A DNA stretch of 51,333 nucleotides from Nitrospirota bacterium. Its GTDB lineage: Bacteria > Nitrospirota > UBA9217. Within the stretch, counting starts at the first letter, position 1. Every line of letters begins with the position of its first letter. The stretch spans positions 1 to 51,333 of the forward strand of contig JAOUEV010000020.1 in NCBI GenBank assembly GCA_029858565.1. Reading direction: 5' to 3'. Shown piece after piece: positions 20,666-35,373 of this stretch. The position numbers and the translations under genes are program-made. The notes beneath the pieces are model-generated. The model had not been told where the DNA came from and made no database searches. It saw nothing but the letters and a program-made list of their open reading frames with translations.

Positions 20666-22126
20666 CTATGCTTCCGCAGACTCGATGATCTTCCGGACCT
20701 CGGGAGGCATCTCGCCCATGGTGGCGCCGATCTTCTTCTTGATGAAGGAATTGCTCATCATGAGCTTCATGGCAGTCACCATGTATTTCTTCTTGAACTC
20801 ATCGCGCTCCTGGAGCGTCATTTCGGCGTAGCGGTTCATGTAAAATGCCCGGTAGCAGTCAACGATCGCCTTGTCCACTTCCTCGAGCGTCATGTTCTTG
20901 GGCTTGAGGATGGGATCGATAAGGTTGTATTTCCGGTAGTCCTTGACAACGATATAGGGCTCCAGGTCCTTGTAGATGTCCGAGTAAGGCCAGGGCGCGA
21001 TCGCGAGAAAATGGGCCATATCAGGATTGAAGTCCATGACCAGTTCGAGCGTGCGCGCGATCGAGTCCTCGGTCTCGTCGGGGAATCCCAGGATCATGGA
21101 CGTTTCCGTGATGATACCGTGCTTGCGGCAGAGGGCCAGCGCTTTCTTGGATTCGCCGGTGCTCAGGTCCTTTTTGATGTAATCCAGGCTCTTCTGGTCA
21201 GTTGCCTCAGTGCCCACGTAGATATGGATGATGCCTGCCTGGCGGTACTTGTGCAGGATGTCCTCGTCGCGGATGATGTCGGCCGCGCGGGTCTCCATAA
21301 GGATATACTGCCCCGCCTGCTTCTCGATCAGCAGGTCCAGGAGCTTCTCCCACCGCGCCCGGTCCGGCGTCGGATAATCGTCGGTAAAGAGCACGACATC
21401 CACGCCATACTTGTCCCGGAGCTCAAGCATCTCGCGAACGATATCCTCGGGGCTCCGCGCCCGCCATTTCTGTTTCCAGTACTTCTGCTGGGAGCAGAAG
21501 GTGCATTCCTTGTCGCATCCCCGGGAGGTGTCCACGGCGCCCAGCCGGGACCCCGGAATGACGAAGTAGTGGTAATCGTTCCAGTCGAGCAGGTCCCACG
21601 CCATGGGCTGGTTGTCAAGGTTCTCCATGAGCGGCCGCTCCGGGGTCACCGCGAGCCCGCCCTTGTCCCGGTACACGATCCCCTTCACCCGGGAAAGGTC
21701 GCCCTGCTTCGTGACCGCATCGAGCAATTCAACGATCGTTTGCTCCCCTTCCCCGCGCACAATGAAGTCAAGTGCGTCGGTGTTGGAGAACATTTCCTCG
21801 TACATGAAGGATGCGTGTACGCCGCCGAGGATCGTTTTGATGGACGGATCGACCTTCTTCGCTGTTTCGACGACCAGCGTGGCGTCGGGCGCCGTGCAGG
21901 TGAACACCGAGGCCGCGATGAAGTCGGGCTTGTAGGAGCGGATCTTCTGCTCGATCTCGGCATACCCCACATCCTTGGTCATGGCATCGAAGATGGCCAC
22001 ATGGTATCCGGCCTTGCGGGCCGCGCCGGCAAGATAGACAAGGTAGAGCGGCACCCACTTGCCTGCGACCTCGACGACTCCCGCGTGATAGGGAGGCGTT
22101 ATGAACAATATCTTCTTTTTTGACAT
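20666..22126 (-). CDS. B12-binding radical SAM protein
   Basis: A 486-residue class-B-type radical SAM enzyme. Residues 1-140 form a cobalamin-binding Rossmann domain without the usual base-off His in a DxHxxG motif. The 4Fe-4S ligands are Cys204, Cys208 and Cys211 (CDKECTFC). The domain ends with an unusual helical C-terminus (DEFKKKYMVTAMKLMMSN). Family members methylate or rearrange lipids, hopanoids, tetrapyrroles or peptides. BchE-like and HpnR-like enzymes share this build, but I cannot decide the substrate. The HEAT-repeat gene is coupled downstream. Confidence 0.9.
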   Translation of the reverse strand: MSKKKILFITPPYHAGVVEVAGKWVPLYLVYLAGAARKAGYHVAIFDAMTKDVGYAEIEQKIRSYKPDFIAASVFTCTAPDATLVVETAKKVDPSIKTILGGVHASFMYEEMFSNTDALDFIVRGEGEQTIVELLDAVTKQGDLSRVKGIVYRDKGGLAVTPERPLMENLDNQPMAWDLLDWNDYHYFVIPGSRLGAVDTSRGCDKECTFCSQQKYWKQKWRARSPEDIVREMLELRDKYGVDVVLFTDDYPTPDRARWEKLLDLLIEKQAGQYILMETRAADIIRDEDILHKYRQAGIIHIYVGTEATDQKSLDYIKKDLSTGESKKALALCRKHGIITETSMILGFPDETEDSIARTLELVMDFNPDMAHFLAIAPWPYSDIYKDLEPYIVVKDYRKYNLIDPILKPKNMTLEEVDKAIVDCYRAFYMNRYAEMTLQERDEFKKKYMVTAMKLMMSNSFIKKKIGATMGEMPPEVRKIIESAEA

Positions 22127-22320: not shown

Positions 22321-22824
22321 TTACCTCAACGCCTGCTGCACATCCTTGCGCAGCTCATCTTCGGAATATACGCCCTTTACCTTCTTCAGGATCTTTCCAT
22401 CCTTCCCGATCAGGAAGGAAACCGGCGGATGGGCGATATCGCCATACTCCCGCTTCACCCGGTCGTTGGCGACCAGCACCGGGAACAATATCCCCAGCGC
22501 CTTCACGTCCGCAAGCGTCACCTCGTTGATCGCTACGGCGATCACGGTGAATCCCTTGTCCTCGTAGGAGAGGTAGACCTTCTGGAACCCCGGCATCTCA
22601 TCCTTGCATGGCGGGCACCAGCTGGCCCAGAAATTGAGCAGAACGACCTTTCCCCGGGAATCGGCGAGCCGCAGCATCCTGCCGGAGAGGTCCGCCAATG
22701 AGATGTTGGGAGCAGGGTCCCCGACAGCGGGCTTCTGTTCATTAAATGAGGCCCGGTCGCAGGCCGAGATGAGGAAAAGCACGAGCAACAGCGTTACGGC
22801 GCGTATGCAATATCTGCCTGTCAT
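22321..22824 (-). CDS. TlpA-like thioredoxin-fold lipoprotein
   Basis: About 167 residues from the ATG at 22824 (GGGAGTG upstream). Signal peptide with lipobox Cys22 (LFLISAC), then a TlpA/ResA fold with the FWASWCPPC active site (Cys70, Cys73) and the cis-Pro in HPPVSFLIG. Such proteins reduce apocytochrome or other disulphides outside the cytoplasmic membrane. It lies 60 nt downstream of the ABC transporter genes. It offers a direct comparison with the UGA-containing relative at 26519. The region 22127-22320 after it has a small inverted repeat (22187-22202) but no gene. Confidence 0.92.
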   Translation of the reverse strand: MTGRYCIRAVTLLLVLFLISACDRASFNEQKPAVGDPAPNISLADLSGRMLRLADSRGKVVLLNFWASWCPPCKDEMPGFQKVYLSYEDKGFTVIAVAINEVTLADVKALGILFPVLVANDRVKREYGDIAHPPVSFLIGKDGKILKKVKGVYSEDELRKDVQQALR

Positions 22825-22884
22825 GATCACTCCCATGCGATGGTCTGTCATATTACCAGATAGCGCGGCATTCAAGAAGAGAAA

Positions 22885-23682
22885 TCATTCTTCTTCGCCC
22901 AGCACGGACTCGATCCGGGTGCGGATCCGCTCCATAACCTGCCCGTACTCTTGTGACAACCGGTTCCGCGGCCGGGCAAGCAGGTTGTCGAAGGACTCTG
23001 CCACTCGGCCGGGGCCCGCGGACAGGACAACGACCCGGTCGGCCAGATAGACCGCCTCATCAATGGAATGGGTGACGAACAGGACCGACAGCTTCCGTTC
23101 ACGGACCAGGTCAATGAGCAGGTGCTGCAGCTGGTGCCTCGTCCGTTCGTCCAGGGCGGTGAACGGTTCGTCCATCAGCCAGTACCAGGATTCCGAGGCG
23201 AGCAGTCTGCCCAGGGCGGCCCGCTGCTGCATTCCGCCGGAAAGTTCGTGAGGATAGAGATCTCCGGAGCCGGCAAGTCCCAGCCGGGCGCAGATCCCTG
23301 CGACCTGGCTCCGGGCGTCTTCCGGAGGGACGCCCTTGACCTCCAGCGGCAGGGCGATGTTCTCGCATACCCGCATCCAGGGAAAGAGCGTGTGACGCTG
23401 CGTCAGGTAACCGATCTTCCGCACCAGCGTGGCGGGGTCCTTGCCGTTGATCGTCGCGGTCCCTCTGTCGGCCCTCTCCAGGCCCGATACGATGCGCAGG
23501 ACCGTGGTCTTTCCCGATCCGGTGGGCCCCACGATGCACGTGATCATTCCTTCAGGCCCCTCAAAAGTAACGCCGTCCAGCGCCTTTACCGCGGTCCCGC
23601 CCCTGCTCAGGAAGGCTTTTTCAACGTCCTTGAGGGAATATGCGGTATCGGTCAGCTGGGGGATGAGGTCTTCTAGCGGCAT
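22885..23682 (-). CDS. ABC transporter ATP-binding protein (NitT/TauT type)
   Basis: About 265 residues from the ATG at 23682, 34 nt after the permease stop. A longer frame would overlap the permease. Walker A GPTGSGKTT, signature LSGGMQQRAALGRLLA, Walker B WLMDEPFTALD and the switch His in FVTHSIDEAVYLADR. It has the SsuB/TauB build and drives import with the permease and binding protein upstream. Confidence 0.95.
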   Translation of the reverse strand: MPLEDLIPQLTDTAYSLKDVEKAFLSRGGTAVKALDGVTFEGPEGMITCIVGPTGSGKTTVLRIVSGLERADRGTATINGKDPATLVRKIGYLTQRHTLFPWMRVCENIALPLEVKGVPPEDARSQVAGICARLGLAGSGDLYPHELSGGMQQRAALGRLLASESWYWLMDEPFTALDERTRHQLQHLLIDLVRERKLSVLFVTHSIDEAVYLADRVVVLSAGPGRVAESFDNLLARPRNRLSQEYGQVMERIRTRIESVLGEEE

Positions 23683-23716
23683 CGGGCCGGTCCCCTGTTG
23701 GAGGTTAGCTCGGTCA

Positions 23717-24589
23717 TCATCGTTCCAAAGCCTGCCAGTGCCCTGCATTCCGCTCGAACCGCGCGAACGCAACATCGATCAGCAACCCGGTGATGCCGAT
23801 AACGATCATGGCGGCGAAGGTGTACTGATAGTCCGAGGTCTTGCAGGCCGTGCAAAGCATATATCCGATCCCGCTCCGGGTGCCGGGAAATATCTCCGCG
23901 GCGATCAGGACCAGCCAGCACATGCCCATGGCGATCCGCATTCCGTGGGCGATCTCGGGCAGCGAATGCGGAAGCACCACCCTTCGCAGGATCTGAACAT
24001 CCGTGGCGCCCAAAAGCCGCATGGTCTCCAGATAGGAGGTCCGTACAGAACGGACGCCGTGGACCGTGCTCAGGAACACGGGGAAAAAAGCGCCCCACCA
24101 CAGGATGAAGACCATCGCGAGCTGTACCTGGTCGGCGACATCGTATTTCCATGCGTCCACCGGACCGAAGGCTACCGAGGCAAGGGAGGACAGTCCGAAG
24201 AGCACTGTCACCAGCGGCAGGAGCACCACCGGATTGATCGGACGCGCGATCTGGACAAGAGGATAGAACAGGCGGTCGACGACCCTGCTCTTCCCGGCAA
24301 GGAACCCGAGCGGCACCGCGGTCGCGACGCCGAGCCCGAAACCGAGCGCCAGCCTGATCAGGGTCATCATAAGCGAGAAGGCCAGGGACCGGGAGTAGAG
24401 ATCGGGAGGTATTTCCAGGGGATGGGCGAGGACCCCAATGACCGCGCTGAACGACGGGATGACCGCCGTACCGCTCCGTATTCCGAGCCACCAGGCAACG
24501 ACCAGCAGCGCGGGAAAGGCCGATCCCAGCAGGATCTTTCCAACGGGTCGGTCGGCCCAGGTCCCTCGCTGGTCATTCCGGTCGGTCAT
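23717..24589 (-). CDS. ABC transporter permease (NitT/TauT type)
   Basis: About 290 residues from the ATG at 24589, 7 nt after the binding-protein stop. About six transmembrane helices with the EAA loop (YLETMRLLGATDVQILRRVV, then PHSLPEIAHGMRIAMG) that contacts the ATPase. The order binding protein, permease, ATPase on one transcript is usual for importers of nitrate, sulphonate, pyrimidine precursors or similar anions. Substrate undetermined. Confidence 0.94.
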   Translation of the reverse strand: MTDRNDQRGTWADRPVGKILLGSAFPALLVVAWWLGIRSGTAVIPSFSAVIGVLAHPLEIPPDLYSRSLAFSLMMTLIRLALGFGLGVATAVPLGFLAGKSRVVDRLFYPLVQIARPINPVVLLPLVTVLFGLSSLASVAFGPVDAWKYDVADQVQLAMVFILWWGAFFPVFLSTVHGVRSVRTSYLETMRLLGATDVQILRRVVLPHSLPEIAHGMRIAMGMCWLVLIAAEIFPGTRSGIGYMLCTACKTSDYQYTFAAMIVIGITGLLIDVAFARFERNAGHWQALER

Positions 24590-24596
24590 AAAGCGG

Positions 24597-25748
24597 TCAT
24601 TTCCCCGCGCCGGGAAGCTCGGCAAGGGCTTCCTCGAGCGGTGTCAGATCAAAGGCGATTGAGCGGATATCCAGGGGACTCTTTCCCTGCAGTCTCTTCT
24701 GGAACGCTTTGGAGGACTGCATGAGCTCGAGCCAGATATCCACGGCGCTGATCCATGCCCGGTCCGGACGGGCTACATAGGTCACATGCGTGATGCTCTT
24801 CTCACCGATCTCCGGAGCTGTCCGGGTCCAGCGGGTCTCGGCGCTCAGCGCCCTGGCCTTGTCATGCAGAACGATGTCCGAACCAGCGGCAATGGCCTTG
24901 AGAAGCGCTTTGACCGCAGCGCGTTTTTCCTTGATCGCTTTTTCTCCCGCGGCGACAACACAGCAGGGATGGTCCTTCCACTTGCCCTCGGGCGGAAGCC
25001 CGGAAAGATCGACAACGCGGAAGCCCGCCTTCTTCGCCACGAGGATCGACGGCATGGGTTCATTCGCAACAACGCCGTCGATGATCCCGCTCTCCATGGA
25101 AGGCAGCGTGTTCTCGTCGCCCTGCAGGTTCATGAGCACCACCTGCACGGACTTGCCGTCAGCGCCGACGGGCTCCTGGCCCGCGCGGATCCCCTCTTCC
25201 GCCAGCGCCCGTGAAAAGATCAGGTAAGCGTTCGCCATGGGGTCCTTGAACCCGATCTTGAGCGGCCGGGAGGACGACTTGACCAGCTTCACGAAATCAG
25301 CCCACGATCCTGCGGTGAACTCGTTCCTGAGCAGCAGCGCGTCGCCGTCATTGTTCAGCGGCGCCAGCACCTTGAGGGGCGAGCCCTTGTCGATGAACTT
25401 GGCGACCGGCCCGAGCCCGCCCAGCCCTACTTCGATATGCCCCTGCTCCAGGGCCGCCGGCATCTTTGCTCCGCCGCCCACGCGCACAAGGTTCAAACGG
25501 GCTACAAGCCTTCCCTTGTCATAAAGATCATAGACCTCCTGGGGCTTCAGTTCCTTCAGGTAGACCCCGTAGGCCTTCTCCAGCGACTGGCCTGCGTCCG
25601 CGGCAGCGTACAATGCGATCTGATGATCATGGCCCACATGGCCCACTACCAGCGTGGGAACCTCAGACCCGCTCTCGGCGCCGAATACGATCCCGCTGCA
25701 AGCGACAAGCAGGGCGGCAAGAAGCACCGGAAAACGCAGCAAGGACAT
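24597..25748 (-). CDS. ABC transporter periplasmic substrate-binding protein
   Basis: About 383 residues from the ATG at 25748, which has GAGGAGG upstream. An earlier start lacks a ribosome site. Signal peptide (LLRFPVLLAALLVACSG), then an SsuA/THI5-like periplasmic binding fold: VGHVGHDHQIALYAAADAG, GGGAKMPAALEQGHIEVGLG and ESGIIDGVVANEPMPSI. The His-rich HVGHDH at the N-terminus and the HPCCVVAAGE segment are unusual and might bind a metal or a sulphur compound, which is inference. It heads the transporter operon and is divergent from the 25886 gene. Confidence 0.9.
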   Translation of the reverse strand: MSLLRFPVLLAALLVACSGIVFGAESGSEVPTLVVGHVGHDHQIALYAAADAGQSLEKAYGVYLKELKPQEVYDLYDKGRLVARLNLVRVGGGAKMPAALEQGHIEVGLGGLGPVAKFIDKGSPLKVLAPLNNDGDALLLRNEFTAGSWADFVKLVKSSSRPLKIGFKDPMANAYLIFSRALAEEGIRAGQEPVGADGKSVQVVLMNLQGDENTLPSMESGIIDGVVANEPMPSILVAKKAGFRVVDLSGLPPEGKWKDHPCCVVAAGEKAIKEKRAAVKALLKAIAAGSDIVLHDKARALSAETRWTRTAPEIGEKSITHVTYVARPDRAWISAVDIWLELMQSSKAFQKRLQGKSPLDIRSIAFDLTPLEEALAELPGAGK

Positions 25749-25852
25749 GAGGGACCTCCTCGGGAGCAGGTTAACAGCGGTCGGTATTTTACGGCGCATT
25801 GCGCTGATTTGTCAACGTTTTCCTGCGCCGTCATCGGGAAAGGAGTTGACTT

Positions 25853-25880
25853 TTGACCGGAGGGAACGGTAATTTATATC
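25853..25880 (+). promoter_or_regulatory. Candidate promoter with start point at the ATG
   Basis: TTGACC (25853-25858) and TATATC (25875-25880) are 16 bp apart. Transcription would begin at or next to the ATG at 25886, which has no ribosome site, so the mRNA could be leaderless. Confidence 0.4.
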
Positions 25881-25885
25881 TACCC

Positions 25886-26281
25886 ATGGGACCGGCGACG
25901 AACATTCTGCTCATGACCATCAACTACTCCCACGACATCGCCACAGCGCTGCTTGCCGTGAGCGGCATTGCCATGTTGATGCTCTGGAAATCCTATCCCG
26001 CGACCGCCGACGCGGCAACGGAACGCTATTTCATCAGCGCCTACCGCGGGATCACGCGGGTCGCCAAGGACTCGCTCTACTGGATACTGCTCGCCGGTGT
26101 GCCGCGCATCGTCTTCTATATGGACTACGAATGGTCCGACCTGGCTGGAGACCATCAGATCATCGCGGTCATCATCAAGCATATCCTCATGTTCCTGCTG
26201 GTCGGGACCGGGGTCTACTCCTGGATGAAACTGAGCAGGCGCGTAAAAGCATTGCACGAAAAGCAGCAGACTCCGGCATAG
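25886..26281 (+). CDS. Four-helix membrane protein, paralogue of 33575-33958
   Basis: About 131 residues from the ATG at 25886. A TTG at 25853 with AGGAG upstream is the alternative. I prefer the ATG because the paralogue at 33958 starts at the equivalent point. Four hydrophobic helices with conserved NYSHDIATALL in the first, YRGITRVAKDSLYW and GVPRIVFYMDYEW in the middle, and HILMFLLVGTGVYSWMK at the end. The His and Tyr residues in helices would suit haem or copper binding (CopD/DUF-type), not proven. It opens the redox gene cluster that runs to 31840. Confidence 0.8.
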   Translation: MGPATNILLMTINYSHDIATALLAVSGIAMLMLWKSYPATADAATERYFISAYRGITRVAKDSLYWILLAGVPRIVFYMDYEWSDLAGDHQIIAVIIKHILMFLLVGTGVYSWMKLSRRVKALHEKQQTPA

Positions 26282-26333: not shown

Positions 26334-26519
26334 ATGGCACGAACGTTGATAATGGGCGCCGTGATCGGCCTGGTCGGAGGGATGGTGTTCAATGTCCTCT
26401 ACTTCGGCGCAGGCCAGATAAGCACGCCCATGGCCTATGTACATGCCGTCTCCGGCACCATCCTGGGCGCCATGATCGCCTGGATCGTCTACCTCCAGCG
26501 AAAGGCTTCGGCAAAGTAA
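26334..26519 (+). CDS. Small membrane protein
   Basis: A 61-residue protein with two hydrophobic helices (TLIMGAVIGLVGGMVFNVLY and VHAVSGTILGAMIAWIVYL) and a basic end. ATG at 26334 follows AAGGGGG. Its TAA overlaps the ATG of the next gene (TAATG), so the selenoprotein-like lipoprotein is translated by coupling to it. Family not recognised. Confidence 0.75.
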   Translation: MARTLIMGAVIGLVGGMVFNVLYFGAGQISTPMAYVHAVSGTILGAMIAWIVYLQRKASAK

Positions 26520-27055
26520 TGGTCCCTATGGGCTTCAAAGGGCTCATAGCCGCAGCAGTCCTCCTGCTGACGGCGTGCTCAAGCGGGCCGTCGGAATTTC
26601 CGGCAGCGGATTTTACCCTCAAGAGCCCGCTCACGGGCAAGCAGACCTCCCTGTCCGAGTTCAAAGGAAGGCCGATCATCATCTACTGGTTCACCAGCTG
26701 GTGAATACGCTGCGCCGAAGAGATCCCGCTGGTCCTGCGGGCAGAGCAGAAATACGAGAAAGAACGATTGGCCGTTCTGTGGGTCGGGCACCAGGATACG
26801 GTCAAGAAACTGACCGGTTTCGCTGAAAAGAACAGGATCCCCGACTATCTGTTCGATCCCGACGACGGCATGTCGCGGAAATACCGGATGACCTACGGCG
26901 GCGGGGTGGTCTTCATCAACCGCGCAGGGACCGTGAAGCTCCGGGTGCCCAAGGGATTCTCGCCAGCGGGCCTGGAGGAAGCGATCCAGAAGATCCTGGT
27001 CAACGAGCCTGTTCAGCCCCAGGGGCAGGGGGCCGGTTCGCAGAAGCAGAAGTGA
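26519..27055 (+). CDS. TlpA-like thioredoxin-fold lipoprotein with in-frame UGA (UxxC), likely selenoprotein
   Basis: A 178-residue frame if UGA at 26702-26704 is read as selenocysteine. The N-terminus has a lipobox (AVLLLTACSSG, Cys20). The fold is TlpA/redoxin: ADFTLKSPLTGKQTSLSEFK, then IIIYWFTSW, the UGA at codon 62, IRC (Cys65), AEEIPLVL, LAVLWVGHQDTVKKL and VVFINRAG. UGA stands exactly where the first Cys of CxxC belongs; the relative at 22321 reads FWASWCPPC. A SECIS-like hairpin lies at 26725-26741. The frame stays open for 115 codons after the UGA. The ATG overlaps the upstream stop. The alternative is a Cys-to-stop nonsense mutation, which would need another reason for the hairpin and preserved frame. 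Confidence 0.8.
26725..26741 (+). promoter_or_regulatory. Bacterial SECIS-like hairpin
   Basis: Stem CCCGC (26725-26729) with GCGGG (26737-26741) and loop TGGTCCT. The loop contains GGUC, the element that SelB reads in the Escherichia coli fdhF SECIS (loop AGGUCU). The GG lies 27 nt after the UGA, within the spacing normally allowed in bacteria. It is inside the coding sequence, as bacterial SECIS elements are. Confidence 0.65.
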
Positions 27056-27125: not shown

Positions 27126-28505
27126 ATGTCCGATTCTTTTTATATAGCTCTTCGGGAATCGCTTCAGGCATCGTTCCTTGTTGCGCTGGTCCTTTTCGCG
27201 CCTCCTGCACGCGATGACGCCCGTTCCCGGCGCAATGCGCTGCTCGGTCTGGTCATCGGGTTCCTTGCCGGCACGGCCGCCGGCGCCATCCCGGCCATTA
27301 CCAGGACCCTGGGCACCCACGAGACCTGGACCTTCTGGCGCCATGGCGCTGAAACAGTCCTGTTCTACGGCAGCGTCGCGCTGCTGGCAGGCACGGGCAG
27401 CAGATCACGCGCGCTGCCTCCGGCATTGTTCCTGCCCTTAGGATTCTCGCTCGTCTTCTTTGAGGCGCGGACGCTCGGCTTCATTGCCCATGATCTCGGC
27501 GCCATGACCGGCCGCATCGGGACCTCCTTTGCCTGGGGGGCAGCGGGACTTGCAGCAGGCGCCCTGCCGCTCCTGCTGATCAGGAGCCGGGTCCGCAGGC
27601 TTCCCTTTGAACGGACCTTCTCCCCCGCGAGCCTGCTCATGTCCCTGGGCGCGCTCCAGCTCTGGATGGGGGGGCTCGGCGAACTCGGCGGTGAAAGCGT
27701 CATGGTCCCGCTCCAGCGAGGGCTGCAGCTCTTCTTCAACGAGTTCATGAAAAGCGTGCAGTCGGCGCTCCTCATAACCGAGCATCCCTTTCTCGAGGTC
27801 ACCCTGTCGGGTCTGGCCGAGTACCTGGGAAGCGACCGCTCCGCTCTGACCGTGACCGTGCTCTTTCTGATGATCCCTCCGGTCTACATCCTCGTCACGA
27901 TCTTTGCGCGTCCCGATCCGCAGGTGACGGGCATCGCCGGAAGCGCCCATCGACGCCAGGCGGTAGCAGGTTTCCGGAGGGATTTGACCCTGGAAAGCGC
28001 GCCGGTCCTGACCGCGTTCATCGTCCTGGTGGTCATGCTCCACGCCGTGAACGTATCCATGAACCCGCTGTATGATCCCGAGCCCGTCCCGGTGCGCGAG
28101 GCCGACGAGGGCGGCGTCATCAAGATCCCGCTGTCGGGCAAGAGCGGCGACCTGACAGACAAGAAACTCCGCAAGTTCGTGTACTACGAGGGAACCAAGC
28201 AGGTGCTGTTCATCGCCATCATGAAGGCTGACAACACGGTCGGCGTGGCGCTTGACCAGTGCGAGATCTGCCGCCCCGCGGACTGGAACAAGGACGCCAA
28301 GGGATACGCACAGAAGGGCGAGAACCTGATCTGCAAATACTGCGTGACCCCCATCGCCACGAACACGGTGAACACGCCGGGAGGCTGCAATCCCATCCCG
28401 GTTCCCTTCAAGATCACCGACGGGTCGATTGTGCTCAACAAGAACCTTCTGGTCTCGACCTTTGACAAGGCCGAGGCCCTGGAAAAAGGGGGAACCCACC
28501 TGTGA
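27126..28505 (+). CDS. FTR1-like membrane domain fused to DUF2318 Fe-S/cysteine domain
   Basis: A 459-residue protein. Residues 1-310 hold about seven transmembrane helices and resemble iron permease FTR1 in the first helix (LRESLQASFLVALVL in place of REGLE). The last ~120 residues are a periplasmic DUF2318 domain with Cys pairs: DQCEICRP and CKYCVTPIATNTVNTPGGC. Proteins of this build occur in FtrABCD-type ferrous iron uptake systems and are proposed to pass electrons to oxidise or release iron. Its GTGA overlap with the ResB-like gene shows tight coupling. The lipoprotein with the UxxC centre directly upstream is a natural redox partner, which is inference. Confidence 0.85.
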   Translation: MSDSFYIALRESLQASFLVALVLFAPPARDDARSRRNALLGLVIGFLAGTAAGAIPAITRTLGTHETWTFWRHGAETVLFYGSVALLAGTGSRSRALPPALFLPLGFSLVFFEARTLGFIAHDLGAMTGRIGTSFAWGAAGLAAGALPLLLIRSRVRRLPFERTFSPASLLMSLGALQLWMGGLGELGGESVMVPLQRGLQLFFNEFMKSVQSALLITEHPFLEVTLSGLAEYLGSDRSALTVTVLFLMIPPVYILVTIFARPDPQVTGIAGSAHRRQAVAGFRRDLTLESAPVLTAFIVLVVMLHAVNVSMNPLYDPEPVPVREADEGGVIKIPLSGKSGDLTDKKLRKFVYYEGTKQVLFIAIMKADNTVGVALDQCEICRPADWNKDAKGYAQKGENLICKYCVTPIATNTVNTPGGCNPIPVPFKITDGSIVLNKNLLVSTFDKAEALEKGGTHL

Positions 28506-29758
28506 GCATCCGCCCCCTCCTCCGCCTGATCGGGTCCTGGTGGCTGACCGCCGCGCTGTTGTCGCTCCTGACATCGGCATATCTCGTCTTCTCCCTTGAC
28601 GGCAATCCCTACCCCGCGTGGCTGGAGTTCCTCTTTCACTCCGGCCCGGGTATCGCGCTCTACTCGGCGCTGACGATCAATATCGCGGCTGCGACCATCC
28701 GCATCGTCGTGGACCGCATGGCAAGGCCCGCAGTTACGCCGGAGACCATCCGGGCCATGGATGAATACACCGAGTTCCCGATCAACGACGACCGGTCCCT
28801 GCACATGGCGGCAGGACTGCTCAAGGAACGCCTGTCTGCACAGGACATCCGGGGCCAGGGCATGCGCCATGTGACCGGCCGCCTGTCCTTTCTTCCCGGA
28901 GCCGTTTTCCGCTTCGGCCTGGTCATGACGCTCCTCGCGCTCCAGGTGAGCGTCCACACCCGCCGGAGCAGTGACGCTGTTTTCCATGAAAACGAGGAGC
29001 GGAGCATCCTGGGGAGCCCGATCACGGTGACAAAGATCTCGGCAAACCTTCCTGGCGATTTTCTGCAAGTAGGTGATGACACGACCTTCCGGCTTGACCG
29101 GGTGTCCGTTACCGCCGCGTCTGCAGGAGCAAGTCACCGCATCACGCCGGGATTCCCGACGCGCATCAGCGGCGCCTATTATCGGGTCCGCCATGTAGGT
29201 TTCGCCCAGCCGGCGGTCATCGCGGTCGCGGGAAGGACCCAGGAGCTGACGGTCGATCTCGACGTCCTGCCTCCGGGAAGAACAAGCATCCTTTCCCTTG
29301 CATCAGGCGACTCGTTCTTCACCTTCTCCCTCGAACCGGACAGGACCATCACCAAGGGCCTGGTCACGGGCAGGCAGTACGATCTGACAGCGCCCCGCTA
29401 CCGGGTCACGGCGCAGCGCGGGAACGTGCGGGGAAAACAGCCTTCGGCCGTTCTCCGGCCCGGCAGTCGTGCCGCGGTCGGTCCGGCATCGATCGCGCTG
29501 GGCAGACCGGGGCTGTCGGTGCGCATCCAGGCCACGTCCGACCCGGCGCTTCCCTTCCTGTATGCAGGCATGCTTATTTTGCTGGCAGGGCTGGGTGCGA
29601 TGCTGAGCAGGTTCTTCTGGTATGAACGGGAATTCGCGCTGTCCATGGACGGGACCACGCTGATCATGGGATGCAGGGACGAGTTCTTCAAGAAGTGGGG
29701 GATCCTGCGATTCCAGCGCTGGACGGAAGGTCTGCAGGTGGCGGAAAAAGCTGGTTAA
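28502..29758 (+). CDS. ResB-like membrane protein
   Basis: A 418-residue protein starting with GTG that overlaps the previous stop by 4 nt. Two N-terminal helices (WWLTAALLSLLTSAYLVF and IALYSALTINIAAATIRIVV), a third near residue 140, a long periplasmic beta-rich domain (FPTRISGAYYRVRHVGFAQP) and a C-terminal helix (LPFLYAGMLILLAGLGAML). This topology is that of ResB/Ccs1 cytochrome c biogenesis proteins, but sequence similarity is weak. A second ResB-like gene with its CcsA partner lies on the other strand at 31848-33414. Confidence 0.6.
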   Translation: MSIRPLLRLIGSWWLTAALLSLLTSAYLVFSLDGNPYPAWLEFLFHSGPGIALYSALTINIAAATIRIVVDRMARPAVTPETIRAMDEYTEFPINDDRSLHMAAGLLKERLSAQDIRGQGMRHVTGRLSFLPGAVFRFGLVMTLLALQVSVHTRRSSDAVFHENEERSILGSPITVTKISANLPGDFLQVGDDTTFRLDRVSVTAASAGASHRITPGFPTRISGAYYRVRHVGFAQPAVIAVAGRTQELTVDLDVLPPGRTSILSLASGDSFFTFSLEPDRTITKGLVTGRQYDLTAPRYRVTAQRGNVRGKQPSAVLRPGSRAAVGPASIALGRPGLSVRIQATSDPALPFLYAGMLILLAGLGAMLSRFFWYEREFALSMDGTTLIMGCRDEFFKKWGILRFQRWTEGLQVAEKAG

Positions 29759-29765
29759 AACAACT

Positions 29766-30809
29766 ATGACACCTTCTTCACCAAGACCGAAAGATGGCAA
29801 CACGCGCCTGCACGTCCTTGCCGGTGTCGCCTGCCTCTGCGTCCTTGCCGGCGCGGGCATCGGCATCCTTGCCGGACGCCAGGACATCACGCCGAGCGAT
29901 TGCCTCGAAACACGGTTGAGCGGCTACCGGTTCATCAACCCCCTGCTTGACTGCGAGATCGCCGGAAATCCCGTCGCGTTCAGGGAATTGAGGTTTTTTC
30001 AGCACAAGATCGAACAGCTCATCAGGGATCGTACCGGAAAATACCAGCTCACCTTGGTGTCCGTTTACTTCCGGGACCTTATGAACGGCCCCTGGTTCGG
30101 CATTAATGAAAAAACGCTTTTCACTCCGGCAAGCCTGCTCAAGGTCCCGATCATGATCGCCTGCCTCAAGCAGGCGGAAAAGGATCCGTCGTTCCTCGGC
30201 AAGCTCGTCCCCAACACTCTGCGGGAAGACCTGAATCAGAAGCAGTTCGTCAAGCCCGACGAGGTGCTCAGGCCGAACCGCCGCTACACAGTGGAACAGT
30301 TGATCCGGAGGATGATCGAATATTCGGACAACAACGCGGCACACCTGCTCGGCAAAACCGTGGACCCGAAAATGCTCGTCAGGACCTTTCAGGACCTCGG
30401 CGTGAAGCGCCCCCTCTTGAACATCCAGTACGATTTCATGTCTGTCAAGATGTACGCGTCGTTCTTTCGGATCCTCTTTAACGCATCCTATCTTGATCGG
30501 AACTATTCACAGCTGGCCCTGGAGTATCTCAGCTATTCCACGTTCAAGGATGGTATTGCCGCCGGCATCCCTCCTTACATCCTCGCGGCCCACAAATTCG
30601 GAGAATTCCATGTTCCGGGACCGGAGAACATCAGACAGCGCCATGACTGCGGCATCATATACTATCCCGGCAGACCCTACCTGCTCTGCGTCATGAGTCG
30701 CGGTCAGGACTACGATTCTCTCGACAACATCATTCGCGAGGTGAGCAGGACGGTTTATGAGGAGATCGACGCGGACGTGAAGTCCCGGTCGCGGAGGTCC
30801 GCCCCATGA
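29766..30809 (+). CDS. Membrane-anchored serine beta-lactamase-fold protein (first of two)
   Basis: A 347-residue protein with an N-terminal anchor (LAGVACLCVLAGAGIGILAG) and a class A beta-lactamase/D,D-peptidase-like domain. The SxxK motif is Ser123-Leu-Leu-Lys126 in TPASLLKVP, the SDN motif is at 187-189 (EYSDNNA) and the KTG box is altered to HKFGE (277-280). The order and spacing of motifs suggest an active serine enzyme. It is more likely a cell-wall hydrolase or peptidase than an antibiotic-resistance enzyme, since the KTG box is not standard. The next gene is a tandem duplicate overlapping by 4 nt. Confidence 0.82.
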   Translation: MTPSSPRPKDGNTRLHVLAGVACLCVLAGAGIGILAGRQDITPSDCLETRLSGYRFINPLLDCEIAGNPVAFRELRFFQHKIEQLIRDRTGKYQLTLVSVYFRDLMNGPWFGINEKTLFTPASLLKVPIMIACLKQAEKDPSFLGKLVPNTLREDLNQKQFVKPDEVLRPNRRYTVEQLIRRMIEYSDNNAAHLLGKTVDPKMLVRTFQDLGVKRPLLNIQYDFMSVKMYASFFRILFNASYLDRNYSQLALEYLSYSTFKDGIAAGIPPYILAAHKFGEFHVPGPENIRQRHDCGIIYYPGRPYLLCVMSRGQDYDSLDNIIREVSRTVYEEIDADVKSRSRRSAP

Positions 30810-31840
30810 GCCTCCGCGCTTCATATACGGTTCCGGCGACGTTGGTCCTGGCCGGCGTCATGCTCATCAGCCTCGGGTTCCTCATCGGCTTCGCCGCAAC
30901 GGGTCGTGGTGATTCCGCTATTCATGCCGAGCGAACCGCGCAGCTGCGTCTCACTGATTTCGACCTCACGAACCCGCTGCTGGAGTGTGAAGGCGCGGAT
31001 GCGACCATCGGGGACCGCACGTTCAGGCCGTTCAAAAATGAGTTGAACTCTCTCGTGAGCAGTATCCTGAACCGGGGACAGGTCCGGCAGCTCGCGGTGT
31101 ATTTTCGCGATCTGAACAACGGCCCCTGGTATGGGATCAACGAAAATCTTGAATTCTACCCTGCAAGCCTGATGAAGATCCCGGTCGCCATGGTCTTTAC
31201 GAAGGAGGCCGAGGCTGATCCACGTGTCCTGCAGCGGGTAATCAAGAACACACTCTCTAAGGATTATAACACCTCACGCGTATATCCGTCTTCCCGTGCG
31301 GTGCTTCCCGGCAGGAGCTACCGGGTCCGGGATCTGATCGAGATCATGCTGTCCGAATCAGACAACAATGCCGTTGTCTTGCTGGGCCGCCACATGAATC
31401 GCGCCATCGCGGAACAGCTTTTTGCCGATCTGGGCCTGCCTGCGCCGACAAACGAACCACGGGACTACCTGTCCATCCGTTCCTTTTCCATGCTCTTTCG
31501 CACCCTGTTCAATGCGTCCTATGTATCGAAGGACGCCTCGGAGGAACTCCTCTCGCTCCTGAGCAGATCGTCCTTTCGTCAGGGGATCGCGGCGGGTGTT
31601 CCCGAGGGGGTCATGATCGCGAACAAGTATGGCGAGCAGCAATTGGGACCGGCAGGGAGCGTCAAGGAATTGCATGACTGCGGCATCATCTATTATCCCG
31701 ACAGCCCCTATCTCCTCTGCGTCATGAGCAAGGGGGACAGCTACGAAGCCGATGAAGCGGCCATCAGGGAGATATCACGATTTGTCTTTTCGGTCGTCGA
31801 TTCCGAGCAGCGCGAACATTCGGATGCGAAACACCGATAG
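30806..31840 (+). CDS. Membrane-anchored serine beta-lactamase-fold protein (second of two)
   Basis: A 344-residue tandem paralogue of the preceding gene. Shared segments include YFRDLNNGPWYGINE, YPASLMKIPV (Ser121, Lys124), SESDNNAVVLLG (SDN 185-187), NKYGE in place of KTG, and HDCGIIYYPDSPYLLCVMS. The N-terminus is a single transmembrane anchor. ATGA overlap with the upstream stop indicates coupled translation. It ends 8 bp before the convergent ResB gene. Confidence 0.82.
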   Translation: MSLRASYTVPATLVLAGVMLISLGFLIGFAATGRGDSAIHAERTAQLRLTDFDLTNPLLECEGADATIGDRTFRPFKNELNSLVSSILNRGQVRQLAVYFRDLNNGPWYGINENLEFYPASLMKIPVAMVFTKEAEADPRVLQRVIKNTLSKDYNTSRVYPSSRAVLPGRSYRVRDLIEIMLSESDNNAVVLLGRHMNRAIAEQLFADLGLPAPTNEPRDYLSIRSFSMLFRTLFNASYVSKDASEELLSLLSRSSFRQGIAAGVPEGVMIANKYGEQQLGPAGSVKELHDCGIIYYPDSPYLLCVMSKGDSYEADEAAIREISRFVFSVVDSEQREHSDAKHR

Positions 31841-31847
31841 GCAGTGG

Positions 31848-32567
31848 TCAACCGTTCATCCGCGCCAGGACGAACCCCGCGCCGCCAAGGCAGAGCAGTA
31901 CCCCGCCGAGAAGCGCCCAGGGCGCGCCGGGATCGCGGCTTACGCGGATAAGCGCCGAGGATCCCTTGTTGTCAACGTTCACGGATTTTGAGAAGATCCC
32001 GTAGCTTCCCATATGCAGGGGATGCGCCGGCCTGAGGGACCGGACCTCTCCGGTCTTCCCGCCGTTGCTCCAGCGCAGCACCGCCTCCCAATCCACGGCA
32101 TACCCGTTCGCATCGAGCTCCTCGCGCACGCTTACCAGCGTGATCGCGGCGCCTTCTGCCACCAGTTTCGTTTCCCCCTGTCTGATGTCCAGGTCCAGCT
32201 TCATGCCCATTGACGCGGTCAGCAGATGTCCCAGCATGACAAAGAGCACGCCGACATGCATGATCTGCGGGGACAAGCGCGCTATCGTGTTGATCCTGCC
32301 GACCCTGAACAGAAGCGCTTCACCGGTGCAGACCAGCGTGTTCAAGGCAAACAGTCCGAGCCCGGCGATGAGACCGTAGATCCACCACGTCGTGCCGATA
32401 TTTCCCGCTTCGGAAAGCCAGCGGAACAGCGGCGTGTCGTCGATGCCCGAGAAGAACGCGAGATTGCCCGGCAGCGCGATCGACCCCCAGAGCATGATCA
32501 CCGCGAAGAAGACGAAGAACCAGTACGCGGTCCTGATGGAAAGGAAGAAATTGAGGATTGCTTTCAT
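31848..32567 (-). CDS. Cytochrome c biogenesis protein ResB-like
   Basis: A 239-residue short ResB/Ccs1-like protein: helices at the N-terminus (FFLSIRTAYWFFVFFAVIML, TWWIYGLIAGLGLFALNTLV), a His-containing helix (QIMHVGVLFVMLGHLL), a periplasmic domain (LRPAHPLHMGSYGIFSKSV) and a C-terminal helix. ResB works with CcsA in system II haem ligation to apocytochrome c. The CcsA gene is directly upstream in the same direction. Confidence 0.82.
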   Translation of the reverse strand: MKAILNFFLSIRTAYWFFVFFAVIMLWGSIALPGNLAFFSGIDDTPLFRWLSEAGNIGTTWWIYGLIAGLGLFALNTLVCTGEALLFRVGRINTIARLSPQIMHVGVLFVMLGHLLTASMGMKLDLDIRQGETKLVAEGAAITLVSVREELDANGYAVDWEAVLRWSNGGKTGEVRSLRPAHPLHMGSYGIFSKSVNVDNKGSSALIRVSRDPGAPWALLGGVLLCLGGAGFVLARMNG

Positions 32568-32649
32568 AGACAGGTCCTTTTATAGGATAGGGAGCCCAAT
32601 CCGCAACAAGATCGAAAAGCAAAGATGTCTCGCGCAAAGCCGCACTGTT

Positions 32650-33414
32650 TCAGAATTGCACCGGCGGCGCGGGAATGATCGTTCCCACCCCAAAGTAAGC
32701 AAAAAGGGCGATGAGATACCCGAGCAGGCCGATGATCGCCGCGGGCCTGCCCGCCAGGCCCTTAAGGTAGCGCTGGTGCAGGTAGAGACCGAAGAAGAAC
32801 CAGCAGAGCGTGGTAAAAAGCTCCCTTGAGGTCCAGAGCCAGTACATGCCGTAAGCGATGAAGAACCAGACACTGCCTGCCACGAGCGCGATCGTGTAGA
32901 CCGCCCACCCGTATGCGGCGAGCTGGTACTGCAGACGCTCCCGGTCCGCGTTCCCCTCGGCAAGATAGGCGATACCCGCGCATGCCGAAACCCCGAAGAA
33001 TCCGTAGGACAGGTACAGGAGGAACATATGCAGCGTGAACCAGGGGGTGCGCATGAACGGAGAGATCGTGTTGATCGTCGGGAAGAGCAGCGACGCTATC
33101 GCCAGCAGGGAAACGGCCGTGATCGACGTAACCTGATACCAGGGAGAGGTGTCGGCGGCGGACAAACGCCAGTACACGACCGCCGTCGTAAAGGCCATGA
33201 ACGAGACGTTATCGTGCTTTTCCGTGAGCGGGATCCCGCCGAGGACATAACCGCGGTATATGATGCTGAGGCCGTGCAGCACCAGCCCCAGAAGAAAGAG
33301 GGTGCGGCTGTGCTTTCCTTCCATCATGCCCATGCCGTAGAACAGCGCGGGAACGAGGATCGAGAAGATCGTGATGAGGGTCCGCGCTTCTTCCGCGCTC
33401 AGATCAGAAAACAT
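32650..33414 (-). CDS. Cytochrome c assembly protein CcsA/ResC-like
   Basis: A 254-residue membrane protein with about eight helices. The segment FIAYGMYWLWTSRELFTTLC is the family haem-handling WWD-type region (here WLWTSRE). Conserved His residues occur near EKHDNVSFM and WFTLHMFLLYLSYGFFG. It exports or presents haem for ligation together with the ResB-like protein downstream. Confidence 0.9.
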   Translation of the reverse strand: MFSDLSAEEARTLITIFSILVPALFYGMGMMEGKHSRTLFLLGLVLHGLSIIYRGYVLGGIPLTEKHDNVSFMAFTTAVVYWRLSAADTSPWYQVTSITAVSLLAIASLLFPTINTISPFMRTPWFTLHMFLLYLSYGFFGVSACAGIAYLAEGNADRERLQYQLAAYGWAVYTIALVAGSVWFFIAYGMYWLWTSRELFTTLCWFFFGLYLHQRYLKGLAGRPAAIIGLLGYLIALFAYFGVGTIIPAPPVQF

Positions 33415-33574: not shown

Positions 33575-33958
33575 TCAGGAGGAAAGCTTTTCCCGTGTCG
33601 CGGACGCGACACGCAGCCAGAAAATAATGCCCACGACGATCATGACCGCGGCGAGACCGTACTTCATGAAGAGGCCTGCCTGATACCCTTTCTGCGCAGC
33701 GTTCACCCATTCGAACGTGTCGAACGTCGCGATGCGGATCAGGCCGCTAACCATGATCCAGACAAGGGAGATCCAGACGAGCCGCACCATGCCGCGGTAG
33801 AGGCTCCGTGCATACGCGCGCAGCACCGGACTCTCGGCGCCGTTGTTCAGGTATTTCCGGAACAGCCAGAGCACAAGCGCGCAGGCCGGCAGCATGGCCG
33901 TTGCCACGTCGTGGAAATAATTGTTCATCAGTAAAAACGTCGCGAATCCCGGGTTCAT
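33575..33958 (-). CDS. Four-helix membrane protein, paralogue of 25886-26281
   Basis: About 127 residues from the ATG at 33958, which overlaps the stop of the upstream radical SAM gene (TGATG). It shares NNYFHDVATAML, LYRGMVRLVWISLVW, IRIATFDTFEW and a C-terminal helix with the 25886 protein. A His in helix one and conserved aromatic residues suggest a haem or quinone site. It sits in a transcript with CcsA and ResB, so a role in cytochrome maturation or electron transfer is reasonable inference. Confidence 0.8.
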   Translation of the reverse strand: MNPGFATFLLMNNYFHDVATAMLPACALVLWLFRKYLNNGAESPVLRAYARSLYRGMVRLVWISLVWIMVSGLIRIATFDTFEWVNAAQKGYQAGLFMKYGLAAVMIVVGIIFWLRVASATREKLSS

Positions 33959-35310
33959 CACTTCCGCACTCCGCATTCCGCATTCCGCATTCGAATCATC
34001 TCTTCCCGCTCACGCGCGAACTGCTTGAACGCCCTGCCCTGGGGGAACTGGACCATCCAGGAGGTGATATGGCTCATGGGGAATCCCTTCCATGACACCT
34101 GGGACATGCGCTCCAGGATCTGGGGGACCGAGAACAGGTCAGCCCGGAGCCGCACGATCGCATCTTCGCGCTCCAGCACGGACATGGTGGGATGCTCGTA
34201 GGTCGCGTGGTTGCCGTCGTAGCTGTCCCAGTCAAGACCGGGGATCAGATAGGGCTTGTAGATATCATAGAGATCGGTGCCGGGAAAGGGCGTGGTCATG
34301 ACCGGATGGGCCGACACCTTCAGGTCATCACAGAGCTTGCGGATGCCGTCAAAGTCCTCACGCACATCCTGCCTGCCGCCGACCATGATGAAGAGCATGA
34401 CCTCGATGCCGTGGTCGCGCACCTTTTTGATGGCGTCCCTGCGCTCGCTGCCCTGCTTGGTCACGGCCTTGTATTCCTGCAGGCTCTGCTGGTTGTTCGA
34501 TTCCCAGCCCACGAGCACCGCCGTGAGGCCCGCCTTGCGCGCGTTGTTCAGCAGTTCGTGGGAGCGCGGATGCTGGATCGACGTGAGGTCGCCGGAGCCG
34601 AACCACCATTTGCGCCGCACGGTCTTTGCCATCTCCGCGTAGAGCTCGATGGAGCGGTTGACGTTCACTCCCCAGATATTGTCGTCGATGCCCCAGAAGA
34701 GATGCCGTTTGCTCGCCGCGACCTCCTCCACCACGTCCTTGATGGGACGCATGCGCACTTTTCCGCCGAAGAACTTATGGACCGAGCAGAAGGCGCAGGA
34801 GAAGGGGCAGCCGCGGGAGGTCTGGAAATAACCGTACACGTACTTGGTCTTCCAGAGGTTCGTGACCGGACGGGGCAGGTTCACCAGGTCCGAGAATGTG
34901 CCCTGGTAGGTCTGCTTGAGCGTCCCCTGCTCCGCGTCCTTCAGCAGCCCTGCCCAGATGTTCTCCGACTCTCCGAGCACCAGCGCGTCGCAGTGCTGCT
35001 TCGCCTCCTCGGGGAGCGCTGTCACATGAATGCCCCCGAGAATGACCTTCTTGCCCATGGCGCGGAGCTTGTCCGCGGTCCGGTAGACCCAGGGAGCCTG
35101 GGGCGTCAGCACGGTGAATCCGATCAGGTCCGCGTCCGCCGCCTGCGGATCAAAGGATTCCTTGTTCGCGTCAACGACCTGGACCTCGATGTCCGGCCTG
35201 AGCTGGCGCGTAAGCCCGGTCATGTATTCGAGCACCGGAGGGGCGATAGGCAGTCCCTTGGACTTCTGGCCCTTCTCGCCGAAGGGAGGGGAAACAAGCA
35301 GGAGTTTCAT
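33958..35310 (-). CDS. B12-binding radical SAM protein
   Basis: About 450 residues from the ATG at 35310. Cobalamin-binding-like N-terminus (LLLVSPPFGEKG, GFTVLTPQAPW, VILGGIHVTALPEEA), 4Fe-4S ligands Cys168, Cys172 and Cys175 (CPFSCAFC) and a TIM-barrel with GIDDNIWG and LVGWESNNQQSL. Only about 24% similar by eye to the enzyme at 20666, so not a recent duplicate. The last residues (MRNAECGVRK) are encoded by the dispersed CCGCATT repeat at 33960-33991, so the natural end of the protein has been extended by repeat DNA. No ribosome site stands before the ATG. Confidence 0.88.
   Translation of the reverse strand: MKLLLVSPPFGEKGQKSKGLPIAPPVLEYMTGLTRQLRPDIEVQVVDANKESFDPQAADADLIGFTVLTPQAPWVYRTADKLRAMGKKVILGGIHVTALPEEAKQHCDALVLGESENIWAGLLKDAEQGTLKQTYQGTFSDLVNLPRPVTNLWKTKYVYGYFQTSRGCPFSCAFCSVHKFFGGKVRMRPIKDVVEEVAASKRHLFWGIDDNIWGVNVNRSIELYAEMAKTVRRKWWFGSGDLTSIQHPRSHELLNNARKAGLTAVLVGWESNNQQSLQEYKAVTKQGSERRDAIKKVRDHGIEVMLFIMVGGRQDVREDFDGIRKLCDDLKVSAHPVMTTPFPGTDLYDIYKPYLIPGLDWDSYDGNHATYEHPTMSVLEREDAIVRLRADLFSVPQILERMSQVSWKGFPMSHITSWMVQFPQGRAFKQFAREREEMIRMRNAECGVRK
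33960..33991. repeat. Short direct-repeat tract with TCCGCATT units
   Basis: Tandem units of CCGCACT/CCGCATT, related to 27081-27116. The tract encodes the C-terminal tail of the radical SAM protein in one frame. Confidence 0.6.
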
Positions 35311-35373
35311 GGTGCACAATGTACCACAGTGCCCGCGGGAAGTTCAATTGCTTTTGGGCAGGTTAAAATGCGA

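Follow-up and report, generated by a model that had tools for sequence, protein, structure and literature searches.

Our data show that the gene at positions 26519–27055 of the window, the 51,333-nucleotide stretch of Nitrospirota DNA analysed here, very probably encodes a selenoprotein with an internal UGA decoded as selenocysteine (Sec); from the sequence and its relatives we put the probability of this reading at about 0.93. The protein, here called WUxRC after its active site, is likely a Sec-based extracytoplasmic thiol oxidoreductase that serves a module of FtrD-like, CcsA, ResB and B12-binding radical SAM proteins. The gene and its elements, all on the + strand, are the following.

26519..27055, + strand: WUxRC selenoprotein coding sequence (predicted), 178 aa including Sec62; signal peptide, lipobox and ResA/TlpA-like thioredoxin domain
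26519..26578, + strand: signal peptide and lipobox (L-L-T-A-C20), predicted from sequence
26702..26704, + strand: UGA, putative selenocysteine codon (Sec62), position 1 of the U-x-R-C active site; 18/18 orthologues
26711..26713, + strand: TGC codon of Cys65, the presumed resolving residue of U-I-R-C; invariant across the alignment
26725..26741, + strand: bSECIS hairpin, arms 26725–26730 and 26736–26741, apical loop GGUCC; from RNAalifold, covariation and a synonymous-codon null
26900..26902, + strand: Gly128 at the thioredoxin cis-proline place (TYGGG); from profile alignment to ResA and the family alignment

The in-frame UGA and its conservation

The only internal stop of the frame is the TGA at 26702–26704, found in the context ...IIIYWFTSW-UGA-IRCAEEIPLV... 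and followed by 116 sense codons up to the end of the gene, whose own terminator is also a UGA (27053–27055). At the other end, the ATG at 26519 shares bases with the stop codon of the small membrane-protein gene that precedes it (TAATG). If TGA is taken as a residue, Pfam matches to AhpC-TSA (50 bits) and Redoxin (36 bits) span it, and it falls on the first Cys of the thioredoxin WCxxC site. The initial annotation had described a single in-frame UGA at exactly this place of a redoxin; its coordinates are right, and the same codon recurs in all orthologues.

Relatives were sought in 60 near genomes, in a genome-contig scan and in 396 Nitrospirota genomes. The contig scan, made with a single protein, led to only two of them, and an alignment-based search of the phylum supplied the rest. 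The 18 orthologues, the window copy included, all come from Nitrospirota and represent at least 8 families; 17 of the 396 phylum genomes are carriers, and the 379 others form the comparison set. Each orthologue has exactly one in-frame TGA, always within W-U-x-R-C (18/18), and none has a second stop within 45 codons; over that stretch the frame is not broken elsewhere in the relatives, a point on which the initial reading might have foundered. Cys relatives had also been expected, and here the result went the other way: across the 396 Nitrospirota genomes and the genome-contig scan, none of the 18 clade members has Cys at the Sec column, and Cys appears there in more distant ResA/TlpA paralogues. 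With no Cys counterpart found, the need for Sec becomes directly testable. The sole phylum match without a TGA (L066, in genome G159) is an ordinary WCGDC TlpA and was not retained as a member. Viral contigs and plasmids yielded no relative, the viral scan being a weak one whose SWC pattern cannot match TGA.

The 765 codons downstream of the UGA contain no in-frame stop, whereas reading the two alternative frames gives 41 and 31, and the substitution bias over the three codon positions is alike on both sides (0.36/0.26/0.61 before the UGA, 0.32/0.27/0.55 after it). Judged by these patterns, coding constraint is the same 3′ of the UGA as 5′ of it, which is the signature of purifying selection.

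Two further ways of reading the UGA have to be weighed. It might be decoded as Trp or Cys, through a near-cognate tRNA or a changed code, or it might terminate translation and leave two proteins, the second restarting at 26768, where a TTG start codon is indeed present. However, UGA is the usual stop at the end of 10 of the 16 genes checked in the cluster, WUxRC included, so the genetic code is unchanged; the conserved bSECIS and the sel genes described below account for the reading of the UGA, and a split would cut through the active site of the thioredoxin domain. We therefore reject the changed-code and split-gene readings as very improbable. A pseudogene reading, with the UGA put down to a nonsense mutation or to an error of sequencing, can be practically dismissed, since beyond the formal meaning of UGA as a stop nothing speaks for it, and the identical UGA in 18 separate genomes, which in effect refutes it, is joined by the purifying selection 3′ of the codon, the covarying hairpin and the Sec machinery. 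Decoding as selenocysteine is thus the reading that we retain. It should be noted that standard annotation would truncate the gene at the UGA and would thus probably pass over both family and module.

The bSECIS hairpin and the selenium machinery

The 18 sequences align without gaps from the UGA onward (alignment A2), and from them RNAalifold, unprompted, returned one helix of six pairs, columns 24–29 with 35–40, closing a loop at 30–34. Paired cells reach 93.5%, more than in any of the shuffles (77.7 ± 2.4) or slid controls (57% or less), and five of the six helix pairs show changes on both sides. The pair of columns 27 and 37, the third base of a Pro codon and the first base of an Arg codon, occurs as G-C (8), U-A (7) and C-G (2), by mostly synonymous changes. 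Because the hairpin region codes for the conserved peptide EIPLVKRA, we also ran a synonymous-codon null: 101 of 108 cells are paired in the observed alignment versus 72.5 ± 3.6 under the null, and complete helices number 13 of 18 versus 0.9 ± 0.9, values that 0 of 2000 draws reach. On this alignment, then, synonymous codon choice does not account for the hairpin.

The window copy reads CCCGC-UGGUCCU-GCGGG and begins about 20 nt after the UGA. It has a 5-bp stem and a 7-nt loop, because its innermost pair is a U-U mismatch; in L054, L056 and L060, too, the 6-bp helix is not fully kept. The first G of GGUC lies 27 nt past the last base of the UGA (26 nt between them), where the initial annotation had placed it, and the hairpin it had proposed gains support from the covariation and from the codon null. 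The GGUC loop itself fared less well: it is present in the window copy, but as a conserved loop it does not hold, with GGUC in only 7 of the 18 orthologues, GGUG in 1 and CGUG in 10, the common feature being N-G-U-N at a fixed position. We do not regard GGUC as a signature, since the loop varies and even the invariant GU is also required by an invariant Val codon. The published bSECIS model calls for a loop 16–37 nt after the UGA with a G within the first two loop positions (PMC13188914), and our hairpin agrees with both points (26 nt from UGA to loop, G in the first two positions). An MFE limit of –7.5 kcal/mol is passed by the window copy (–8.5 with the 5-bp stem), though not by the simple stem of every orthologue. 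No Rfam family matches the hairpin region.

Selenium machinery is complete in the genome from which the window comes. It contains a tRNA-Sec (64 bits; anticodon TCA by ARAGORN), a SelB (389 bits) with an adjoining SelA (604 bits), and two SelD genes with one in-frame TGA each (G000:C3:2376-3290 and G000:C14:90529-91446), both of them, to judge from their sequences, probably Sec-containing selenophosphate synthetases. The proposed search for selA, selB, selC (tRNA-Sec) and selD therefore finds all four, and together with the conserved UGA and the covarying hairpin they give the selenocysteine reading strong support. Across the phylum, tRNA-Sec was found in 161 of 396 genomes, namely in 14 of the 17 carriers versus 147 of the 379 others (Fisher 5e–4, uncorrected for kinship). 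The remaining carriers, G100, G313 and G395, showed no convincing tRNA-Sec, though each has a full-length SelB (353–377 bits); G100 and G395 are drafts of many contigs and G313 is a single contig. This result, most of all for G313, speaks against the selenocysteine reading, as do the helix deviations noted above. Two matches over the tRNA-Sec cut-off in G395 are tRNA-Ser according to ARAGORN and were discarded. Given the sel machinery and a conserved, covarying bSECIS, SelB should be able to deliver Sec-tRNA at 26702.

Fold, gene neighbourhood and possible function

The lipobox LLLTAC ends at Cys20, and the lipobox Cys is kept in 16 of 18 orthologues. All 18 have U-x-R-C with an invariant Arg directly before the second Cys, and at the cis-proline place every member that reaches it has Gly (subgroup 1) or Ala (subgroup 2, L090 and L092–L095). 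AlphaFold2 predicts a confident thioredoxin fold (pLDDT 89) with ResA (1su9) as its top structural match (TMt 0.87, rmsd 1.8 Å, 19% identity), and ResA is also the best profile match. Pfam match, fold and lipobox thus bear out the earlier description of a TlpA/ResA-like redoxin lipoprotein. With the cis-proline missing and the NCBIfam ResA model scoring 33.6 bits against a cut-off of 170, the protein is filed as ResA-like at the superfamily level only. The genes around it in the window are listed below.

20666..22126, – strand: B12-binding radical SAM protein near BchE (407 bits vs cut-off 481); in many clusters
22885..25799, – strand: ABC transporter (ATPase, permease, NMT1-like binding protein); in some clusters
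25853..26281, + strand: CopD-like membrane protein, 142 aa; conserved upstream neighbour
26334..26519, + strand: small membrane protein, 61 aa, its stop overlapping the selenoprotein start; from sequence; relatives also adjoin the gene in L080 and L084
27126..28505, + strand: FtrD/DUF2318 membrane protein (FetA-like), CxxC-x20-CxxC-x14-C; PF10080, 81 bits; proposed redox partner
28502..29758, + strand: ResB-like membrane protein; codirectional neighbour
31848..33414, – strand: ResB and CcsA, a System II cytochrome c maturation-like pair; conserved across clusters
33958..35319, – strand: second B12-binding radical SAM protein; in many clusters

In most loci the FtrD-like gene follows directly downstream of the Sec gene and is itself followed by the ResB-like gene, with the CopD-like gene upstream, though the cluster genes are not a single operon everywhere. 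All 17 carriers have the FtrD-like protein, versus 6 of the 379 other genomes. The B12-radical-SAM pair together with CcsA/ResB suggests an undescribed tetrapyrrole- or heme-related module.

Some further genes of the cluster deserve mention. A tandem pair of class A beta-lactamase-like genes, far under the NCBIfam cut-off, lies inside it at 29766–31840 (+ strand). An ordinary Cys TlpA/ResA-like lipoprotein with a WCPPC site is encoded at 22321–22875 (– strand) and is possibly a reductant or backup of the Sec protein. Both B12-binding radical SAM proteins have counterparts of 65–78% identity in several other selenoprotein clusters.

The initial annotation had seen the protein as a neighbour of an FTR1-DUF2318 iron permease. 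The DUF2318 part stands (PF10080), while the permease part does not: FTR1 (PF03239) is over cut-off in none of the 17 carrier genomes, P19 (PF10634) is found in 0 of 17, and the FTR1 motif REGLE is mostly altered to REALQ-like forms in the FtrD-like protein. With FTR1 and P19 missing and REGLE altered, the name iron permease is unproven. The DUF2318 spacing also differs, being x20 in the Sec-linked copy versus CxxC-x13-CxxC-x14-C in the genome's second, Fet-type copy; the x20 spacing and mostly lost REGLE of the FtrD-like protein at 27126–28505 mark a DUF2318 subtype that accompanies the Sec protein. The second copy belongs to a Fet-type cluster of the same genome (L131 5712-11225, G000:C41), made up of two MacB-like permeases, an ATPase, the FtrD-like protein with x13 and a ResB-like protein. 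No P19, FTR1 or thioredoxin was found beside this cluster, and a Cys counterpart sought beside second FtrD copies was not found either.

We propose that the WUxRC protein is exported, lipidated at Cys20 and folded as a thioredoxin. Sec62 would then attack a disulfide or pass on oxidising equivalents, and Cys65 would resolve the selenylsulfide. The DUF2318 domain of the adjacent FtrD-like membrane protein, with its two CxxC and a further Cys, may be the redox partner and is the likeliest candidate, a tentative assignment to which gene linkage points, and the CcsA/ResB pair would be part of the same extracytoplasmic redox module. If so, the finding ties selenium to a DUF2318 redox module.

The main rival to this reading makes the selenoprotein a ResA/CcsX-like reductant of apocytochrome CXXCH for CcsA/ResB (System II), with the link to the FtrD-like protein secondary. 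We consider it possible, somewhat on the doubtful side. ResA being the best match by sequence and structure argues for it, as does subgroup 2, in which the Sec gene comes straight after codirectional CcsA and ResB genes. Subgroup 1, by contrast, has CcsA/ResB on the opposite strand or nowhere in view, and the FtrD-like gene is immediately downstream; the missing cis-proline and the low ResA score do not favour this role, and few phylum genomes carry the gene, whereas cytochrome c is common in Nitrospirota. A role of the Sec/Cys pair in binding or handing on a metal (iron, copper) or an Fe-S cluster, whether alongside disulfide exchange or in its place, is in our view improbable. The Gly or Ala in place of cis-proline could permit this, as that proline is thought to block metal binding by CxxC thiolates (PMC2757866), but no other Cys or His is invariant in the thioredoxin domain, and U-x-R-C is a motif typical of redox sites. 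A thiol oxidoreductase of the FtrD-like/CcsA/ResB/B12-radical-SAM module is thus the function that we prefer. A broader reading, speculative and rather unlikely as a whole, would join this Sec-obligate, cis-proline-less oxidoreductase with the FtrD-like DUF2318 protein, CcsA/ResB and the two B12-radical SAM proteins (one near BchE) in an undescribed iron/heme/tetrapyrrole module of Nitrospirota in which selenium is indispensable.

Comparison with known Sec redoxins, ResA and the Fet system

A catalogue of 2026 holds 119 selenoprotein families or subfamilies (PMC13188914). The Sec redoxins of its Table 1 include the Prx-like thiol:disulfide oxidoreductase (UxxC, UxxU), the Redoxin family protein (UxxC), UGC TlpA, SaoT and a thiol-disulfide isomerase-like protein (cd02966 UxxC); the generic PF08534 UxxC and cd02966 UxxC entries are represented by HEU0032618.1 and MGB1650493.1 (PMC13188914). 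UxxC redoxins stand there under broad names, none of them described as DUF2318-linked (PMC13188914). As the catalogue already contains Sec redoxins and selenoproteins of DsbA-like and DsbG-like type (PMC13188914), an extracytoplasmic location is not unusual, and the earlier remark that this is a rare place for selenium has to be dropped. Among the NCBIfam models of June 2026 no selenoprotein model is reached (SelL-related, 18.6 bits against 120; WAxxUGC, 15.5 against 300), and in the literature we found nothing relevant on selenoproteins and iron uptake, on DUF2318 in Nitrospirota or on Sec in ResA.

A tree built from 50 redoxins unites the 18 WUxRC proteins in one clade (100/100) and places outside it the WUPxC Sec redoxins of Nitrospirota (L143–L146), which we assume to be the catalogued Prx-like TDOR family. 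The other Sec proteins of TlpA/Prx-like type seen in the phylum (L143–L147) have WUPFC, WUPYC, WUPLC or TUPYC sites and lie outside the WUxRC clade where tested. Known Sec redoxins share with WUxRC the thioredoxin fold and, in most cases, Sec as the first residue of the active site. WUxRC differs from them in forming its own clade, in separating U from C by x-R instead of P-x, in its linked FtrD-like protein and in scoring above the cut-off of no NCBIfam selenoprotein model. It is, apparently, a new and uncatalogued Nitrospirota selenoprotein subfamily, compared here with the catalogue by description, so that overlap with a broad entry is possible. As a Sec subfamily it is well supported, its bSECIS covaries, and no counterpart with Cys was found.

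Likeness to ResA/TlpA extends to the fold, the AhpC-TSA/Redoxin matches, the N-terminal membrane or lipid anchor, the WxxxC site and the CcsA/ResB genes nearby. Unlike ResA, all WUxRC members have Sec for the first Cys, R before the second Cys and, where they reach that far, Gly or Ala for cis-proline; identity is about 18–19%, and scores stay far under the ResA cut-off.

The closest parallel in gene arrangement is the fetMP-fetABCDEF system of Campylobacter, in which the thioredoxins FetE and FetF go with the DUF2318 protein FetA (PMC10783030, PMC6083913) and their joint loss impairs growth and goes with sensitivity to iron level (PMC10783030). As at the WUxRC locus, a membrane-associated thioredoxin is encoded with a FetA-like DUF2318 membrane protein, and FetBCD-like genes occur, as in Fet, near the second FtrD copy of the window genome. 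The 17 carriers differ from Fet in having neither P19 nor a recognisable FTR1/FetM and in their DUF2318 spacing (x20 vs x13), and FetE (CPSC) and FetF (CGVC) are Cys proteins, likened here to WUxRC by protein type and gene linkage. By this analogy, the WUxRC protein may stand to its DUF2318 neighbour as FetE/FetF do to FetA in Campylobacter, as a counterpart that uses Sec.
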